Source of the DNA: an uncultured Clostridia bacterium
GTDB lineage: Bacteria > Bacillota > Clostridia > Christensenellales > Borkfalkiaceae
DNA: 51,837 nt
Assembly: GCA_944367465.1 (NCBI GenBank)
Contig: CALVWO010000003.1
Coordinates: forward strand, 1-51,837
Direction of reading: 5' to 3'
Positions 5,143 through 50,517 of this stretch are shown here, one piece after another. The stretch's first letter is position 1; each line of letters opens with the position of its first letter. Below the pieces are notes generated by a model. That model worked only from the letters and a program-made list of their open reading frames with translations, searched no databases and was not told the origin of the DNA. The position numbers and the translations under genes were made by a program.

Positions 5143-5430
5143 CGTTTTCTCCGCGTCAGTTCGCGGAAAAACGTGCAAACCCGTTTTCAATCACTCGCGC
5201 AAGCAGGATTGCCCTGCTTAAAAATGGTTGCAAAAGGCGTCACTTGTTATGCCTTTTGCGCCCTTAATCGTTGCGCAAGCAACTTCTGCGGAAAGGTGAG
5301 CCGCCGCGTGCTATACTGTTGCGAAACAGCGGCGGCGAGGAAAACCGAATGCAGAGCCACAGGCGAACATTGGGTTTTCCTTCCCCTCACGGAATTTCTT
5401 TTTGTCAGTTCAAAAAGAAATTCGTGAACA
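5143..5430. repeat. Modular stem-loop element A (hisS-hslU gap), single-arm copy
   Basis: Fills nearly all of the 325-bp gap between hslU and hisS. From left: hairpin 5143-5173 with loop TCAGTT; hairpin AAGCAGG/CCTGCTT; a 35-base hairpin starting GTTGCAAAAGGCG (5227-5261); a GTTGC/GCAAC hairpin; core hairpin GCCGCCG/CGGCGGC (5298-5338) enclosing TATACTGTTGCGAAACAG; hairpin GGAAAACC/GGGTTTTCC; terminal hairpin 5387-5427 (TCAC, 13-bp stem, loop TCAGTT, GTGA). The last hairpin ends a few bases from the hslU stop codon. The same modules in the same order recur in elements C, D, E and F. Confidence 0.85.
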
Positions 5431-5431
5431 T

Positions 5432-6742
<1,311 letters not shown>

Positions 6743-6762
6743 AGTTATTTCTCCTTATATTT

Positions 6763-6806
6763 GTTCACACTTTTTCTTTCAAACTGATGAAAGAAAAAGC
6801 GTGAAC
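6763..6806. repeat. Solitary terminal hairpin of the element family (hslV-hslU gap)
   Basis: GTTCAC (6763-6768), stem CTTTTTCTTTCA (6770-6781), loop AACTGA, stem TGAAAGAAAAAG (6788-6799), GTGAAC (6801-6806): an 18-bp stem with one mismatch. From 6763 to 6799 it is identical to the left end of element C ahead of clpX. No T-run follows on the minus strand, so it does not look like a terminator. Confidence 0.8.
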
Positions 6807-6810
6807 CCTT

Positions 6811-7344
6811 TTACACCGTTTCGCAGATGATATGATCGTTCGTGTACACGCAGATCTCGCTTGCGATCTTGAGCGACTTGCGCGCGATCTCCTCCGCGGA
6901 AAAATCGGTGTTCTGTGCGAGCGCGCGCGCCGCGGCGAGCGCATAGTTGCCGCCCGAACCGATGGCGCAGATGCCCTCGTCCGGTTCGATGACTTCGCCC
7001 GTGCCCGAGAGGATGAGGAGCGTATCCTTATCCGCCGTGATCATCATGGCGTCGAGCTTGCGGCCGATCTTGTCGCTCCGCCACATATCGGCGAGCTCCA
7101 CCGCCGAGCGCATGAGATTGCCCGCGAACTTGTTGAGCATGCCCTCGAAGCGCTCCGAAAGCGCGAAGGCGTCCGTTACCGAGCCGGCAAAGCCTAAAAT
7201 GACCTTGCCGCCGTAGATGCGGCGCACCTTGATCGCCGTGTTCTTGAAGACGACCGACTCGCCCATCGTGACCTGTCCGTCGCCTGCGATCGCCGTAACG
7301 CCGTTTCTCTTGACGGCGCAGATCGTCGTACCGCGAAATTCCAT
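6811..7344 (-). CDS. hslV: HslV, peptidase subunit of the HslUV protease
   Basis: Proteasome-like threonine peptidase of 177 residues (ClpQ). The catalytic Thr becomes N-terminal after removal of MEFRG, leaving TTICAVKR. Conserved [20 protein letters not shown] and the Gly-rich [17 protein letters not shown] are present, plus the C-terminal [20 protein letters not shown]. Length is typical. It begins 12 bp after trmFO and is followed by hslU. Confidence 0.97.
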
Positions 7345-32601: not shown

Positions 32602-33153
32602 GTTCACACTTTTTCTTTCAAACTGATGAAAGAAAAAGTCGTGATTTTGAGAGACAACCCGCGGGTACGCCTACGGCTGACCGCGTGTTTGTCTCAACCG
32701 CGCTAAGGAACAACGCGGTTTCGGTCACGAAATTGCCGCTGAAAGGGCAATTTCTCAGTTCGCGCATACGCCGAAGCCCCACAGGGGCTGTCGGCATAAC
32801 GTACGCGCTCACCTCTCGCTGCCGCTGTTTCGCAACAGTATAGCACGCGGCGGCTCACTCTTTCCCCGTAAGCGCAGGTATGCGCAAATGCAGGGCGCGG
32901 GCGCAGGGAAACCCTGCTTGCGCAAGAGATGATAGCTTTTGGAAGCTAAAATTCGTTGCAAAAGGCGTCACTTGTTATGCCTTTTGCGCCCCTATTTGCC
33001 GCTCACGCGGTTTACGCAGAAAAGTGAAGGCGGCGTTTATTATGTTGCCATGAACGCCGCCGAGAAAAACCGCGTGCAGAGCGCAAGCGAACACGGGGTT
33101 TTTTTAAGAATCACGAAGATTTTTCCCGTCAGTTCGGGAAAAATCTGTGAATG
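32602..33153. repeat. Modular stem-loop element C (clpP-clpX gap), two inverted arms
   Basis: Occupies almost all of the 571-bp gap. Left terminal hairpin 32602-32644 (GTTCAC, stem CTTTTTCTTTCA, loop AACTGA). Then hairpins GAGACAA/TTTGTCTC, AACCGCG/CGCGGTT, GAAATTGCC/GGCAATTTC, a CCCCACAGGGG stem, and the core module in reverse complement (32815-32855). The centre has CAGGG/CCCTG and AGCTTTTGGAAGCT. The right arm carries GTTGCAAAAGGCG (32955-32989), CCGC/GCGG, core GGCGGCGTT/AACGCCGCC with a different stem, and a right terminal hairpin 33111-33150 (loop TCAGTT). Loop and module order match elements A, D, E and F. No ORF of note. Confidence 0.85.
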
Positions 33154-37656: not shown

Positions 37657-37795
37657 TGATTACCTCCGTAAAAAGAACGTAGCGTTCTATTCCATGTTAT
37701 GCTGCCGGAATATATTTTGCGCACCCCCCTGCTTACCCACAAGGCGTTTTTCTGATGCACGGTCATTGCATTCTGCGCCAATGTTATAAAATAAC

Positions 37796-38009
37796 GTTGC
37801 AAAAGGCGTCACTGCGTTATGCCTTTTGCGCCTCAATTTGCCGCTCACGCGGCTTTCACGAAAAGGTGAATTCGCGCGAAGTATTGTGGTTGTGCCCTTA
37901 AAATTCGCGCGAAGAGGAAAAACGAACGGTTAGCCTACGGCGTGCCCGTTGGTTTTTCCTCAAATCACGACTTTTTTCCGCGTCAGCTCGCGGAAAAAAG
38001 TGTGAACAT
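37796..38009. repeat. Modular stem-loop element D (upstream of the Cys-rich gene), single-arm copy
   Basis: Begins GTTGCAAAAGGCGTCAC (37796), then a GCCTTTTGC hairpin, CCGC/GCGG, a core module whose stem is TTCGCGCGAA on both sides enclosing TATTGTGG, hairpin GAGGAAAAAC/GTTTTTCCTC with inner AGCCTACGGCG, and terminal hairpin 37965-38005 (ACTTTTTTCCGCG, loop TCAGCT, CGCGGAAAAAAGT) ending near the LysM gene's stop. Upstream 37657-37795 has short inverted repeats (GAACG/CGTTC, GTTAT/ATAAC) and no gene. Confidence 0.8.
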
Positions 38010-41834: not shown

Positions 41835-42569
41835 TTCACGAATTTTCTCGTCCAAAGGGACGACAAAATTCCGTGATTTGAGCAGGAAGTTGCTGACACG
41901 GCACTACGTGCCTACGGAAAAATGCGCTTGTGTATCCTTGGCACCCTCCATGAAGGGCGGCAAGAGATAATTACTCGCGCAAGGAGGCTACGCCTCCGCC
42001 AGCGCCCTACATTTGCGCATACCTGCGCTCGTCGCGACAAGGCGCATTTTGTGGGCATTCGGCTATTCCGAACGCCACACTTTTTACGCCTGTCGCTCCT
42101 CTTCACGAAAATCTTTTCTGCAAAAATATTTTCGTGATTGCTGCGGTACTTTTTTCAAAGAGTGAGCCGCCGCGTGCTATACTGTTGCGAAACAGCGGCG
42201 CCGAGGTGAGCGCGTACGTTATGCCGTCCGACGCAAAGCGGCGCACGAGCGCAGCCGAAGTACCGCCCCTGTGGGGCTTCGGCGTATGCGCGAACTGAGA
42301 AATTGCCATATCAAGGACAATTTCGTGACCGAGGCGGCACACCGCCTTGGTGCCGCCGAGACAACCAAATGCAGAGCCGCAGGCGAACGTTGGGTTTCTC
42401 TTCCCCTCACGACATTATCGTACCGCAGCCCTCGCAAAAAAGATTTCGCAGAAAGATTTTTTGCGAAGAGGAGCGGCGAGTGTTTTAAGCGCGGCGTTCG
42501 GCGCAGCCGAACCGCCCGCAAGATGTGCTCCGCCGCGACGACGTCAGTTCGAAAAGAATTTCGTGAAAT
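41835..42569. repeat. Modular stem-loop element E (rpsP-khpA gap), largest copy
   Basis: Spans almost the whole 760-bp gap. Left terminal hairpin 41835-41876 (stem GAATTTTCTCGTCC, loop AAAG), identical in reverse complement to the right end of element F. Further hairpins: GGCAC/GTGCC near 41900, GGAGGC/GCCTCC near 41980, 42103-42137 (TCACGAAAAT / ATTTTCGTGA), core module at 42164-42205, the GAAATTGCC..GGCAATTTC arm shared with element C, GGCGGCAC/GTGCCGCC, CGCAAAAAA/TTTTTTGCG at 42432-42467, GGTTCGGC-type stems, and a right half-hairpin TCAGTT..GAATTTCGTGAA (42543-42569) whose left partner is lost. It appears to be a nested or rearranged copy. No coding region seen. Confidence 0.8.
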
Positions 42570-44906: not shown

Positions 44907-45803
44907 TCAGAAAAATCCCTCGACGAACTGCTCGGCGTCGAACAGCTCCAAATCGTCGATCTTCTCCCCCACGCCCGCGAACACGACGGGGATCTTCAGT
45001 TCGCCGCACAGGGAGAACACGAACCCGCCCTTCGCGGTGCCGTCGAGCTTGGTCAGGACGATGCCGTCCAGTTCCACCGCCTCATCGAACACGCGCGCCT
45101 GACTGACGGCGTTCTGCCCCGTGGTCGCGTCGAGTACCAGATATTTGAGGAACTGCGCCTCGGGATATTCGCGCGTGACCACGCGATCCATCTTCTGCAA
45201 TTCCTTCATGAGGTTTTCCTTGACGTGCAGGCGACCCGCGGTATCGACGAGCACCACGTCCGTTCCGCGCGCCTTGGCGGAGGAGACGGCGTCGAAAATG
45301 ACGGCGGAGGGATCGCTCCCGTCCTCGTGCTTGACGATGCGCACCTTGGCGCGGTTCGCCCAGACTTCGAGCTGATCGATCGCCGCCGCGCGGAAGGTAT
45401 CCGCCGCCGCGATGGTCACGCTCTTTTTCTGTTTGACGAACCAGTTTGCGACCTTGCCGATGGTCGTCGTCTTGCCCACACCGTTGACACCCACGAACAT
45501 GATGACGCATGGATACTCGATCTCGGGAACGGGCGCTTCGTTCAGCGTATCTTCGAGGATATCCTTCAGAAGATCGGTGACGAACTGCTCGTCTTTGACC
45601 TTGTTCCCGATCGCCTCTTCTTTGACCTGCTCGACGACATCCTCCGCCGTGCGGACAGAGACGTCCGCGGAGATGAGGATCTCCTCGAGCTCGTCGTAGA
45701 AGGCGTCGCCGATCTTATTTTTGAGGAACAGCTGCCGCATCTTCAGGGCGACGCTGTCCTTCGTCTTTTTCAATGCGTCTCTGATTTTTCCGAAAAGACC
45801 CAT
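44907..45803 (-). CDS. ftsY: SRP receptor FtsY
   Basis: 298-residue GTPase docking SRP at the membrane. N domain helices (LKMRQLFLKNKIGDAFYDEL), then VIMFVGVNGVGKTTTIGKVANW, AADTFRAAAIDQLEVW, VLVDTAGRLHVKENLM, VLTKLDGTAKGGFVFS and FAGVGEKIDDLELFDAEQFV. The acidic A domain of longer FtsY is absent, usual for Firmicutes. It ends the plsX-rnc-smc-ftsY operon; element F separates it from smc. Confidence 0.97.
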   Translation of the reverse strand: MGLFGKIRDALKKTKDSVALKMRQLFLKNKIGDAFYDELEEILISADVSVRTAEDVVEQVKEEAIGNKVKDEQFVTDLLKDILEDTLNEAPVPEIEYPCVIMFVGVNGVGKTTTIGKVANWFVKQKKSVTIAAADTFRAAAIDQLEVWANRAKVRIVKHEDGSDPSAVIFDAVSSAKARGTDVVLVDTAGRLHVKENLMKELQKMDRVVTREYPEAQFLKYLVLDATTGQNAVSQARVFDEAVELDGIVLTKLDGTAKGGFVFSLCGELKIPVVFAGVGEKIDDLELFDAEQFVEGFF

Positions 45804-45814
45804 ACATTACCTCC

Positions 45815-46275
45815 TCACAGATTTTCCGCGAACTGACGCGGAAAATCTTCGTGAATTTTAGGAAAACCCCGCAATCGCTACGCTTTGTGCGCGGTTTTCC
45901 TCGCCGCCGCTGTTCGCAACAGTGTAACCCGCGGCGGCTCACCTTTCCGCAGAAGCGCAAGTATGCGCAAATGTGGGGCGCGGGCGCAGGGAAACCCTGC
46001 TTGCGCAAGTGATTTTATAATATCTCACAAAATTCCTAAAAAAGCTATAAATCACAGATACAAGCAAAATCGCCATTTTGCGCAGTATGCCCCTAATTGT
46101 TGCGCAAGCAACTTTCAGGAAGGAGTGAATTTGCGCGAACTATAAATGTAAGCCCCTAAGGTTCGCGCAAAGAGAGGAAGGCGCGGTCAGGCGTATGCCG
46201 TGCCCGCAGCCGTCCTCTCAGATCACGGAATTTTGTCGTCCCTTTGGACGAGAAAATTCGTGAATGTAGTGTGAA
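45815..46275. repeat. Modular stem-loop element F (smc-ftsY gap), two inverted arms
   Basis: Fills the 476-bp gap. Left terminal hairpin 45815-45854 (AGATTTTCCGCG, loop AACTGA). The left arm, in reverse complement, carries GGAAAACC..GGTTTTCC and the core GCCGCCGCTG..CAGTG..GCGGCGGC (45898-45940). The centre has CAGGG/CCCTG near 45990. The right arm has GCAAAAT/ATTTTGC, GTTGC/GCAAC, a core with stem TTTGCGCGAAC/GTTCGCGCAAA around TATAAATG, GAGAGGAAGG/CCGTCCTCTC, and terminal hairpin 46223-46263 (GAATTTTGTCGTCC, loop CTTT). The gap lies between co-transcribed genes; no ORF of note. Confidence 0.85.
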
Positions 46276-46279
46276 CATT

Positions 46280-49200
46280 TTACGCCATCACCGTATCTCC
46301 GCCCAGTCTTGCCTCGACCTCGGAGAGCTTGACGGAGACGATCTTGCTCACGCCCTTTTCCTCCATCGTGACGCCGAACAGGACGTCTGCCTGGTTCATG
46401 GTGGGCTTGCGGTGCGTGATGACGATGAACTGCGTATCCTTGGAGAACTTTTTGAGATACTTTGCAAAACGGTCGACGTTCGCCTCGTCGAGCGCCGCCT
46501 CGATCTCGTCGAGGATACAGAACGGCATGGGACGCGACTTGAGGATGGCGAACAGGATGGCGATCGCGGTGAAGGCGCGCTCGCCGCCCGAGAGCAGCGA
46601 AATTTTTGTGAGTTTTTTCCCGGGCGGACATGCCACGATCTCGATGCCGGCGTTGAGCGGGTCGTCGCAGTCGGTATAGTCGAGCTGCATCTCCGCCTTG
46701 CCGCCGCCGAACAGCTCGCGGAAGATCCTGGTAAAGTTCTCGTTGATCTCGTTGAACCCGTCGTCGAACTTCTTCTGCATCTCCGCCCTGAGCTCGTCGA
46801 GCACCGTCGTGAGATCGGTGATGCCCTTATCGAGATCCTCCTTCTGCGTGAGCATCTCGTTATACCGCGCGAGCAGGTTATCGTAATCCTCCTCGGCGTT
46901 CTGGTTGATCGCGCCGAGCGAAGTGATCCTGTGTTTTAAGCTGTTGATGCGCGCGGACGCCTGCGTGATATCGTAATTTTCGTCGCGCAGTTCCTGCGCG
47001 CTCTCGTAAGTGAGCCCGTATGCCTCGTCGATGCGCTGCTTCATGTTCTCGAGCGTGACCTCGGCTTTGGAGATCTCCAGCTCGCAGGCATGTTTGACTT
47101 CGCCGAGCGACATCTGCTGCGTGAGCAGCCCGCGCTTTTCTTCGGCGAGCTCCGTCTGCTTTGCGAGAACGGCGCGCTTTTCATCCTCCACCTTTTTGAG
47201 GCGCTCGCGGATTGCGTCGACCGTCCTCTGCTCCTCTTCGGTGAGGGCGACTTTCTCCTCCTCGCGCTTGAGCTGCTCGATCTGCGCCTGCGTCTCCGCC
47301 ATGGCGGCACGGGTCTCGTCCACCTTTTTGAGGAGCGTTGCGCGCTCTTCGCGCATGCGCACGGAGCTCTCTTCGTCCGCCTGGCGCGCCGAGGCGATCG
47401 CCGCCTCCTCTACCCTGAGTTCGCTGAGCTGTTTCGAGAGTTCGTCGCGCTCGGCGCGGAGCTTTTCGCCCTCCGCCTGGCGCGCCGAGGATTCCGCGGC
47501 AGCCTCCGAACGGATCTTGTTGAGGAGCTCCTCGCTCTCTTCGGAAGAGAGCACTTCGCGGCTGAGGTCGTCCGCCGTGCGGGTGAGCCGTTCGAGGAGC
47601 GCGTCGTACTCCGCAACGTCGTTCGCGGCGTCCTGCGCGAGCCCTTCGAGCGTCGCCTCGCGCTGGGAGAGCGCGGCGAACGCCGCCGTCTCTTCCTGTA
47701 CCTTTACGCGGAATTTTTCGTAGGCGGCCTCCGCGTTTTCCAGCTCCGCCTCGCAGTCGGCAAGCGCGGCTTTGAGCTTTTCGAGCGTATTTTTCTTGCG
47801 CGCGATGCCCTCTTCGCACTCCTTGATGTGGCGCTCGCCGGCAAGGAGGTTGCCGCTCTCACGGCGGCGGGAACCGCCCGTCATGGCGCCGCTCGACGCA
47901 ATGGTATCGCCGTCCAGCGTAACGAGTTTGAACGCGCGCGGATACTTTTTGGCGATGCGCGTGGCATTGCCGATGGTATCGCAGATGAGCGTGTTGTCGA
48001 GCAGATATTTTACGATGTTGGAATAGTACGGATCGTACTTGACGAGCTCGTCGGCAAGCCCCATCGCCCCCTCTTCGCGGAGCGCCGCCTGGACGTCGCG
48101 CCCGTTGCCGCGGGGGCGCATCGCATCGGCGGGGAGGAAGGTGACGATGCCGCCGCCCGTGCGTTTGAGATACTCGATAAGCCAGCGTGCGTCGTCCTGC
48201 GTGGCGGTGACGAGATTCTGCATCGCGCCGCCGATCGCCGTTTCGATGGCGACTTCGTACTGCTTGTCCGTGCGGACGATATCCGCAATGGCGCCGCGGA
48301 TGCGCCTGCCGATCTCGGGATCCTTCTGCGCGGTGAGCTGCAGACGGCGCACCGAGTCGCGGTAGCCGTCGAACCTGTTTTTGAGGTTGACGTACATCTC
48401 GAGATTGTTGTTGAGATTGGAAATGGACGTGTTACAGTCCACGATGTCTTCCGAAAGTTTCTGGCGGGACTGGCGGAGCGCCGCGATATCGCCCTGGAGC
48501 GCCTCCTCGCGCGCGGGTTTTGCGTCGAGGAACTTGGTGCAGGCGTCCTTATCCTTGCGGCAGTCCGCAAGCTGGCGCTCGTACTCCTGCCGGCGCACCT
48601 GCGCCTTGCCGATCGCCTCTTTCACCTCGCCGATACGCTCGCTGACCGCGTCGTGCCGGGCGGAGAGGCTCCCCACGTTCGCACGGACGTCGGCAAGGCT
48701 CTCCACGGAACTGAGCTCGCTGGCGCGCTTCTCATCGGAGATGCGGTCGAACGCGACGACCTTCGCGTCCGCCTCGCGCAGTCTGCCCTCGAGCCGCGCG
48801 CATTCCTTGCCGATCTCGGCGGCGCGCCTGCCGTTCTTTTCCGCCCGCGCCGCGCCCGCACGCTCGAGCTGATCGATCTCCTGCGTGCGGCGGAGGGAAT
48901 ACTCCACGTCGTCCGCCGCCGTCTGGAGCTGGCGGCGATAGGAGGCGATGCGCTCGCCGATGACCTTCGCCTCGCCCGTTTTGTGCTCCATGCCCACCTC
49001 GAAAAGGCGGAGCTTTTCGTTGAGCGAACGCAGGTTCTCGTCCGCCTTTACAATGGCTTCGCGCCCCTCCGATTCCTCGGTATCCAGCACCGAGAGCCGG
49101 TCTTCCACCGCGTTCAGGCGGCGGGTCGCATCCTCGATCTTTTCGCGCTGTTTGCCCGTTTCGAATGCAAAATTATCAAAGCGCACGAGGTAGGCGTTGA

Positions 49201-49879
49201 CCTCCTCGTGTTTGAGCTCTTCCGTATAGGCGCGGTACTTTTTCGCCGTTTCCGCCTGCTTTTCGAGGGGACGGAGCTGATTCTCCGCCTCGTCCATACG
49301 CTGCACGAACACGGTAAGATTATCCTTGGCGCTCTCGAGTTTGCGCTCGATCTCGCCCTTTTGCGCCTTGAACTTCATGACGCCCGTCGCCTCTTCGAAA
49401 ATGGCGCGGCGATCCTCGGGCTTGGCGTTCATGATCTGCTCGACCTTGCCCTGCCCGATGATGGAATAGCCCTCCTTGCCGATGCCGACGCCGTGCAGGA
49501 GCGCGACGATATCTTTGAGACGGCAGGACTGCATGTTGAGCAGATATTCGCTCTCGCCCGAACGGTAAAGACGGCGCGTCATGGCGACTTCGTCGTAATC
49601 GATATCGAACATGCGGTTGGTATTATCGAATACGAGGGTCACCTCGCAGTAGGAAAGCGGACGGCGCGCCTCGGTGCCGCCGAAGATGACGTCCTGCATG
49701 GAGGAACCGCGCAGCGTCTTGGCGGACTGTTCGCCGAGCACCCAGCGCACGGCGTCGGCAACGTTGCTCTTGCCGCATCCGTTGGGGCCGACGATGACGG
49801 TGACGCCGTCGTCGAATTTGATGGAGGTCTTGTCCGCGAACGACTTGAACCCCACAAGTTGCATCTCTTTGAAATTCAT
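46280..49879 (-). CDS. smc: SMC chromosome segregation/condensation ATPase
   Basis: 1199 residues. N-terminal head FKSFADKTSIKFDDGVTVIVG with Walker A VGPNGCGKSNVADAVRWVLG, long coiled coil (about 165-490), hinge (about 500-670; VTLDGDTIASSGAMTGGSRR), second coiled coil (about 680-1010), C-terminal head with signature LLSGGERAFTAIAILFAIL and Walker B FCILDEIEAALDEANVDRF. Length is typical. The ATG at 49879 overlaps the rnc stop by four bases and gives the family start MNFKEMQLVGFKSF. Confidence 0.98.
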   Translation of the reverse strand: MNFKEMQLVGFKSFADKTSIKFDDGVTVIVGPNGCGKSNVADAVRWVLGEQSAKTLRGSSMQDVIFGGTEARRPLSYCEVTLVFDNTNRMFDIDYDEVAMTRRLYRSGESEYLLNMQSCRLKDIVALLHGVGIGKEGYSIIGQGKVEQIMNAKPEDRRAIFEEATGVMKFKAQKGEIERKLESAKDNLTVFVQRMDEAENQLRPLEKQAETAKKYRAYTEELKHEEVNAYLVRFDNFAFETGKQREKIEDATRRLNAVEDRLSVLDTEESEGREAIVKADENLRSLNEKLRLFEVGMEHKTGEAKVIGERIASYRRQLQTAADDVEYSLRRTQEIDQLERAGAARAEKNGRRAAEIGKECARLEGRLREADAKVVAFDRISDEKRASELSSVESLADVRANVGSLSARHDAVSERIGEVKEAIGKAQVRRQEYERQLADCRKDKDACTKFLDAKPAREEALQGDIAALRQSRQKLSEDIVDCNTSISNLNNNLEMYVNLKNRFDGYRDSVRRLQLTAQKDPEIGRRIRGAIADIVRTDKQYEVAIETAIGGAMQNLVTATQDDARWLIEYLKRTGGGIVTFLPADAMRPRGNGRDVQAALREEGAMGLADELVKYDPYYSNIVKYLLDNTLICDTIGNATRIAKKYPRAFKLVTLDGDTIASSGAMTGGSRRRESGNLLAGERHIKECEEGIARKKNTLEKLKAALADCEAELENAEAAYEKFRVKVQEETAAFAALSQREATLEGLAQDAANDVAEYDALLERLTRTADDLSREVLSSEESEELLNKIRSEAAAESSARQAEGEKLRAERDELSKQLSELRVEEAAIASARQADEESSVRMREERATLLKKVDETRAAMAETQAQIEQLKREEEKVALTEEEQRTVDAIRERLKKVEDEKRAVLAKQTELAEEKRGLLTQQMSLGEVKHACELEISKAEVTLENMKQRIDEAYGLTYESAQELRDENYDITQASARINSLKHRITSLGAINQNAEEDYDNLLARYNEMLTQKEDLDKGITDLTTVLDELRAEMQKKFDDGFNEINENFTRIFRELFGGGKAEMQLDYTDCDDPLNAGIEIVACPPGKKLTKISLLSGGERAFTAIAILFAILKSRPMPFCILDEIEAALDEANVDRFAKYLKKFSKDTQFIVITHRKPTMNQADVLFGVTMEEKGVSKIVSVKLSEVEARLGGDTVMA

Positions 49880-50517
49880 TGCTCTGAAAGTTTCCCGTAC
49901 AATTTTTTCGCCGCGGACATCTCCGCTTCCTTTTTGCTCTTGCCGGTGCCGCACGCAGACTGCCCCAGCGCGCACACCGTGCTCTCATATCCTCCCGCCG
50001 CCTCCGCAGTCCTGTACACGGGCGTTACGTGCTCGTACTTCTGTACATATTCCTGCAGAGCGGATTTATAGTTATCCGTCTCCGTCTCTTCCAGCGTCCG
50101 CGCGAGAAAGGCGCGCGCCGCCGCCATGCCGCCGTCCAGATAGATCGCGCCGACCGCCGCCTCGAAGAGGTTGGAAGCCGTTTTGCCGCGGAGCGTATCT
50201 TCGCCGCCCGCATAGCGCAAAAAGCGCATGAGCCCCGCACGCGCCTCGGCGCGTTCGAGCGCGCCCTTGGAGACGTATTTTTTGCGCAGTTCGGTGAGCG
50301 TGCCCTCGCGCTCGTCTACGTCGCGGTACAGTTTTTCCGTAACGACCAGCTCGAGGACGGCGTCGCCGAGAAATTCCAGCCGCTCGTTGCTCACCTCGCC
50401 GCTGTTTACGAGCGATGCGTGCGTGAAGCACGTTCTGAGCAGGGCGCGGTCGGAAAACTTATGACCGAGCGCCTCTTCCGCAGCGCACAATTCCTCTTCC
50501 GTCCACTCCGCCGTCAT
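49876..50517 (-). CDS. rnc: Ribonuclease III
   Basis: 213-residue double-strand-specific endoribonuclease. Catalytic signature NERLEFLGDAVLELVV at about residues 44-59, the second acidic site NLFEAAVGAIYLDGG, and a C-terminal dsRNA-binding domain (DNYKSALQEYVQKYEH, GTGKSKKEAEMSAAKKLY). Overlaps plsX and smc by four bases each, a tight coupled set. Its presence matters for the structured intergenic elements, which would be double-stranded RNA in transcripts. Confidence 0.97.
   Translation of the reverse strand: MTAEWTEEELCAAEEALGHKFSDRALLRTCFTHASLVNSGEVSNERLEFLGDAVLELVVTEKLYRDVDEREGTLTELRKKYVSKGALERAEARAGLMRFLRYAGGEDTLRGKTASNLFEAAVGAIYLDGGMAAARAFLARTLEETETDNYKSALQEYVQKYEHVTPVYRTAEAAGGYESTVCALGQSACGTGKSKKEAEMSAAKKLYGKLSEQ

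Follow-up and report, generated by a model that had tools for sequence, protein, structure and literature searches.

Hairpin mosaics in the intergenic spacers of a Candidatus Gallimonas-like gut bacterium: an apparently genus-restricted family whose copies probably share shuffled hairpins

REP, BIME and REPIN sequences are repetitive extragenic palindromes, which occur in mosaics with REPs in inverted orientation (PMC6006769, PMC3116915, PMC3733652). The BOX elements of streptococci consist of boxA, boxB and boxC modules, conserved in sequence and varying in number (PMC3049150), and mitochondrial hairpin elements include the GC clusters of yeast (PMC4478555) and the repetitive hairpin-forming elements of sponges (PMC2800124). 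Template switching, a source of two-sided stem changes, can create and mend stems in a single event (PMC8794818). We analysed an element, termed F, in the smc-ftsY spacer of a gut bacterium, and on balance we favour reading it as a copy of a non-coding, genus-restricted interspersed mosaic family, with hairpins shuffled between copies and palindromes kept perfect at the DNA level. The open-access literature yielded no description of hairpin or mosaic repeats of this clade.

The window, a stretch of 51,837 nucleotides, belongs to the 1.585 Mb genome (93% complete) of a Candidatus Gallimonas-like member of the gut Clostridia, and its FtsY shares 98% identity with the FtsY of Candidatus Gallimonas merdigallinarum, which served as the sister species (genome G018). 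The analysis covered 501 kb of the source genome and, in G018, about 370 kb in stretches together with short loci, and the data were short-read metagenome-assembled genomes (MAGs) throughout. Elements in the window (Table 1) keep their earlier labels A (5.2 kb), B (6.8 kb), C (32.6 kb), D (37.8 kb), E (41.8 kb) and F (45.8 kb). Pfam matches showed that F is flanked by ftsY (44907-45803) and smc (46280-49975), both on the minus strand; a convergent intergenic setting for F, taken from longest-ORF gene orientation, was accordingly dropped. All longest-ORF orientations around the elements were discarded, because antisense ORFs mislead in a G+C-rich genome. Element B lies between hslV and hslU and A directly after hslU (window 5432-7344), which places elements inside conserved gene pairs; intercistronic positions were found in hslV-hslU, clpP-clpX and smc-ftsY.

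Table 1. Elements of the window and the parts of element F (window positions)
Feature	Position	Strand	Description
Element A	5213-5431	+	one complete arm (S3 5387-5427); decayed S3 at 5143-5173
Element B	6765-6804	-	lone S3 hairpin, hslV/hslU spacer
Element C	32604-33150	.	two arms: S3 32604-32644 (-) and S3 33111-33150 (+); clpX/clpP spacer
Element D	37783-38005	+	single right arm; subfamily unchanged at sister-species site
Element E	41836-42567	.	complex mosaic; left S3 type II 41836-41876 (-); right end S3 3' half only
Element F	45815-46263	.	two outward-facing three-hairpin arms around a centre
F left S3, terminal hairpin	45815-45854	-	TCAC-GA-AGATTTTCCGC-GTCAGTTC-GCGGAAAATCT-GTGA; 63 bits, covariation
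F left S2	45860-45902	-	GAGGAAAACCGCG..GGTTTTCCT
F left S1 and GTGA boundary	45903-45942	-	GTGAGCCGCCGCGG..CACTGTTGCG..GCGGCGGC
F S0 hairpin and inner hairpin	45943-46013	.	S0 GCGCAAGTATGCGC; inner GCGCAGGGAAACCCTGCTTGCGC; 91% identical at same site in sister species
F centre	46014-46076	.	run AAAAAAGCTATAAATCACAGATACAAG common to sister species; 71% identical
F right S0 and GTGA boundary	46090-46128	+	TTGTTGCGCAAGCAAC; sister species has another hairpin, TTTGCCGCTCACGCGGC
F right S1, type II	46129-46171	+	ATTTGCGCGAAC..GTTCGCGCAAA
F right S2, type II	46172-46219	+	GAGAGGAAGGCGCGG..CCGTCCTCTC
F right S3, type II	46223-46263	+	TCAC-G-GAATTTTGTCGTCC-CTTT-GGACGAGAAAATTC-GTGA; 32 bits

The arms hold three hairpins in the order GTGA-S1-GAG-S2-TCAC-S3-GTGA(A). 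S3 consists of a TCAC/GTGA foot of 4 bp, an unpaired G that is conserved (GA in shorter alleles), a free stem of 11-12 bp and a fixed loop, which is GTCAGTTC or ATCAGTTT in type I and CTTT in type II. S1 has a free stem of 8-9 bp and, in type I, a loop containing TATAcTGTTGC; S2 is longer and has internal bulges, and S0 and further hairpins lie inward of the arms. Across 67 parsed arms, the stem-allele libraries comprised 10 S1, 14 S2 and 9 S3 clusters, counts that depend on the chosen edit-distance cut-offs. The left arm of F, read on the minus strand, consists of S1 GCCGCCGCG.., S2 GAGGAAAACC..GGTTTTCC and S3 GAAGATTTTCCGC, and the right arm consists of S1 TTTGCGCG.., S2 GAGAGGAAGG.. and S3 ..GTCGTCC. 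The sequence-only reading had aligned the left arm, inverted, with copy A and had described the right arm as the same plan with other stems. Both statements were borne out: the left arm and A (5296-5427) carry the same S1 and S2 allele classes and have most of their sequence in common, and S1, S2 and S3 of the right arm belong to a different class. The resemblances it had reported for C also held, the left arm matching E in inverse orientation (32806-32863 / 42157-42214, 90%; 32652-32791 / 42262-42401, 75%) and the right arm matching D (32947-33027 / 37789-37869).

We found about 45 intergenic elements of 120-830 bp with the same modules in the 501 kb of source genome. F had 63 genome matches including itself (62 elsewhere; best other E=1e-95), and element E as query had 78. 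The S3 model identified 52 copies in the source genome and 55 in G018, and it matched 78 of 101 genomes of the genus; a sample of 248 genomes of the order from outside the genus yielded weak matches only, in two genomes of the same family. Within the window, the terminal hairpins of A, B, D, F-left and both ends of C had E-values of about 1e-10 to 1e-13, and those of element E and F-right had 2e-5. Similarities of this size are far beyond chance. F and its modules had no match in plasmid and viral collections, the module pattern used there fitting only 41-nt S3 alleles with a central TT (one window hairpin). The hammerhead-like string CTGATGA in one S3 allele was attributed to chance; other alleles do not have it.

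The copies are unevenly placed. About 154 kb of the source genome (C1:1-60000, C2 and C6:1-40000) are element-free, reflecting either uneven spread or a foreign contig, and the other contigs carry one element per 5-10 kb. Contigs C23, C32, C33, C43, C54, C62 and C72 end at or inside elements, so that the elements limit assembly. Several copies have unusual structures. At C54:10147 the terminal hairpin is inverted in place relative to its arm, so that its loop GTCAGTTC reads on the opposite strand; recombination between the two halves of one palindrome would give this outcome. A half-S3 alone, joined to module GACGTCGTCGCGGCGGAGC within the conserved loop, occurs at window 42430-42567 and at C4:15440-15565. 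A second repeat family (CCCCTCATCCGTCTGCTTCGCAGACACCTTCCCCC..GGGGGAAGGC, CCTCCCTC..GAGGGAGG) is nested in S2 hairpins at C72:1-137 and C54:2796-3082 and at loci L202, L205, L206 and L214 of G018. Two other Gallimonas genomes (G089:C7:27106-27810; G057:C3:76240-76465) have terminal hairpins repeated in one orientation at intervals of about 165-185 bp, a tandem arrangement not seen in the source genome.

The earlier claim that full elements are inverted dimers held, with one qualification. Ten arm pairs, 353-551 bp apart, were found in the two genomes, and all 10 face outward; this count leaves out two close pairs (one of a different lineage on C8, the other flanking ftsY with one arm on each side). 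Of the 87 arms found, however, only 20 belong to two-armed elements, and most copies have one recognisable arm. Second ends that are decayed or cut are visible in A and E. The accompanying suggestion that one arm was duplicated head-to-head and the two then diverged would explain why the arms are inverted and follow one plan, yet we regard it as highly improbable. The two arms of an element are as unlike as random arms, with a mean similarity of 0.593 within elements and 0.618 between elements (random draws of ten arm pairs: mean 0.619, sd 0.031), and the longest exact stretch common to both is 7-24 nt. Near-identical arms, which such a duplication should leave in at least some elements, occurred in none of the ten. 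No S3 allele was common to both arms in any of the 10 elements, which is not significant alone (random sharing 9%; probability 0.38). The stems that differ are moreover existing alleles rather than diverged copies.

Pairing was nearly complete in the terminal hairpin. In 14 distinct S3 alleles, 99.6% of cells were paired, and 11 of 17 pairs varied, with 52 two-sided changes and no one-sided change. Both stem halves always change together, almost without G-T intermediates: we counted 5 G-T in 957 S3 pairs, most of the other S3 mismatches presumably being the constant G.G of type II, and 1 G-T in 536 S1 pairs, with 62 of 67 S1 stems perfect. S2 had more (39 of 1165 pairs). The near-absence of G-T suggests palindromes maintained at the DNA level rather than an RNA drifting through G-U. 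When S3 loops with TCAC and GTGA borders were scanned with no pairing demand, 67 of 70 had 9-10 of 10 pairs, so selection by the search does not explain the pairing. Two S1 stems (C9:35890 and C24:3995) are hybrids, with halves from different alleles and the break in the loop, and look like unrepaired intermediates. No hybrid S3 stem was seen among the 70 bordered loops.

The sequence-only reading had also proposed that arms recombine among elements. Exchange is supported by linkage and by differences at the same site, but its unit is the single hairpin and not the arm. The refuting result that this reading had named, arm trees in exact agreement with element trees, was not obtained: S3 is in near linkage equilibrium with the other two slots, and a given site can hold different alleles in the two sister species. 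Mutual information was 0.62 for S2-S3 (0.54 shuffled; 78 of 500 shuffles as high) and 0.55 for S1-S3 (0.47 shuffled; 81 of 500 as high), and four-gamete violations occurred in 25 of 100 (S2-S3) and 33 of 100 (S1-S3) allele quadruples; S1 and S2 were partly linked (1.14 vs 0.61). Adjusted mutual information between the two halves of one stem was 0.91, 0.92 and 1.00, compared with 0.44 and 0.11 for halves of neighbouring stems that face each other only a few bases apart. The pattern is opposite to what decay with distance would give, which indicates that the hairpin is an inherited block that either moves whole or has its half-exchanges repaired to match. A dedicated structure-specific recombination system of Gallimonas that swaps whole hairpins as cassettes at fixed sites, reading foot, bulge and loop but not the stem, is an unlikely alternative explanation.

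Comparison with the sister species showed that the sites are mostly old and common to both species, and that hairpins there have been replaced whole by alleles of other loci. For 22 elements both flanks could be placed in G018; one site had no element, and the others, apart from C42, spanned 156-742 bp there. S3 differed in 11 of 15 comparable arm pairs, a set that includes one weak site match (C42, with a G018 gap of 2.2 kb), and where all slots were readable S2 differed in 8 of 12 and S1 in 7 of 12 arm pairs. At C9:35138 the flanks are 98% and 96% identical, yet the right arm is type I in one species and type II in the other. At the F site the neighbouring genes are 91% and 86% identical, and the inner block (91%), centre (71%) and right S3 (100%) are retained; the identity of the centre indicates that both are the same insertion. 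The left S2 (39%), left S3 (66%) and right S2 (67%) differ, each new stem being paired, and the replacing alleles are present at other loci of both genomes.

Chimeras built by short-read assemblers from arms of different copies could in principle imitate such replacements, the genomes being MAGs in which many contigs end in repeats. We consider this artefact very unlikely. The independent MAG L090 carries at smc-ftsY a deleted remnant with the S3 allele of the sister species and the same unique junction, sites D and C24:5568 have an unchanged subfamily in both species, and the repeated modules are, in our judgement, mostly shorter than one read.

In more distant relatives the smc-ftsY spacer measures 6-116 bp or about 180-720 bp, exceeding 1 kb in a few Borkfalkia-type genomes, and the longer spacers examined are hairpin mosaics of mostly other sequence. 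The element is missing at the same site in many relatives, where the site is empty or short. In rabbit-gut relatives (L092, L093, L096, L106, L111, L131, L137, L146) the spacer consists of hairpin mosaics of unrelated sequence, and similarly shaped terminal hairpins (TTCAC or TTTCG..stem..CGTGAG or CGAGG) hold whole other hairpins in their loops.

Selected RNA or DNA structures whose stems drift in place by compensatory substitutions, for instance in intercistronic processing or regulation, would also produce strong covariation with conserved loops and boundaries, and the positions within hslV-hslU, clpP-clpX and smc-ftsY would suit such a role. In-place compensatory drift is nevertheless already disfavoured, and we rate it as quite improbable: G-T intermediates are almost absent, the new stems are near-identical 40-50 nt alleles from other loci, the window had no Rfam match at gathering thresholds, and many relatives are without the element at the same site.

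Searches of two families, Y1 transposases and reverse transcriptases, brought up no mobilising enzyme for the elements. The 93% complete source genome had no PF01797 match (Y1 transposase) at E<=0.01 and no reverse transcriptase. A Y1 gene occurs in 8 of 30 relatives, with no correspondence to where the elements occur. That of G018 was rejected as the mover, being an ordinary IS200 beside a tRNA-like region with no flanking arms. These results bear on an active MITE-like or REP-like transposon whose transposase would recognise folded ends (4-bp foot, bulged G, stem and fixed loop), with insertions in or beside old copies replacing the ends. The constant foot, bulged base and fixed loop around a free stem are what a structure-reading enzyme would need, insertions differ between species, and foreign modules were found inserted in hairpins and loops. 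Most sites are common to both species rather than new, however, and comparison of three sites with counterparts that lack the element or arm showed no clear target duplication, the flanks having diverged. Together with the enzyme searches, these observations make an active transposon rather unlikely.

In the shuffled-mosaic reading that we favour, a full copy has two inverted arms with additional hairpins in the centre between them. The boundaries of the arm hairpins (GTGA, GAG, TCAC, GTGA) and their loops are fixed, and every slot draws its stem from a small allele library. During replication or repair, copies may exchange when strands switch at hairpin boundaries and at the short conserved loops, mismatched hybrid stems may be made perfect by template-switch (quasipalindrome) correction, and selection would remove arms unable to fold. 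As no hybrid S3 was seen, correction must be fast, or S3 moves whole; the DNA downstream of S3 is unique, so that ordinary two-sided homologous conversion of S3 would have few bases of homology there. The main rival to this mechanism would be a hairpin-reading enzyme. Arms within an element would differ because they are independent draws from the allele pool, and identical arms might give long, perfect and unstable palindromes. The element itself was probably dispersed at an earlier time as a passenger of the MITE or REP kind. Where it lies within operons (clpP-clpX, smc-ftsY), transcription would yield a large folded RNA between the cistrons, which may affect the mRNA.

Two-sided stem changes are usually taken to prove that a folded RNA is under selection. 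In these elements they represent wholesale allele replacement between loci at otherwise stable sites, which calls for caution when RNAs are sought by covariation in such genomes. The elements also explain assembly breaks at spacers in these gut genomes, and they offer a natural test case of how bacterial chromosomes copy, swap and keep perfect palindromes.

Like REP, BIME and REPIN sequences, the elements are interspersed, intergenic and hairpin-based, form inverted pairs and mosaics in many copies per genome, and have a bulged hairpin with a fixed tetranucleotide at its foot. They are not REPs or REPINs by two features: the foot is TCAC/GTGA in all bordered S3 rather than GT[AG]G, and the PF01797 search found no Y1 (RAYT/TnpA-REP) gene in the source genome. 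Unlike REPs, moreover, they have three different hairpins per arm, reach several hundred bases, and have stems that vary freely and stay fully paired. Classical MITEs differ as well, since here only TTCAC/GTGAA and the loop are constant at the ends and stems differ among copies. With BOX elements they share a modular, intergenic, folded structure and long fixed sites of changing module content, whereas alternative stems in fixed slots and inverted arm pairs set them apart from the BOX architecture as described (PMC3049150). Mitochondrial hairpin elements are likewise small, dispersed and located in spacers, in another genetic system. They are not known to have inverted three-hairpin arms. Neisserial intergenic mosaic elements (NIMEs) are also composite intergenic elements with shuffled modules; they place a short conserved repeat around variable units and are not known to have the three-hairpin arm plan. 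The feature of BIMEs, inverted units in an intergenic mosaic, was found here in outward-facing form in 10 of 10 two-armed elements, and the family works like a bacterial interspersed mosaic element of the kind represented by BIME, BOX and NIME.
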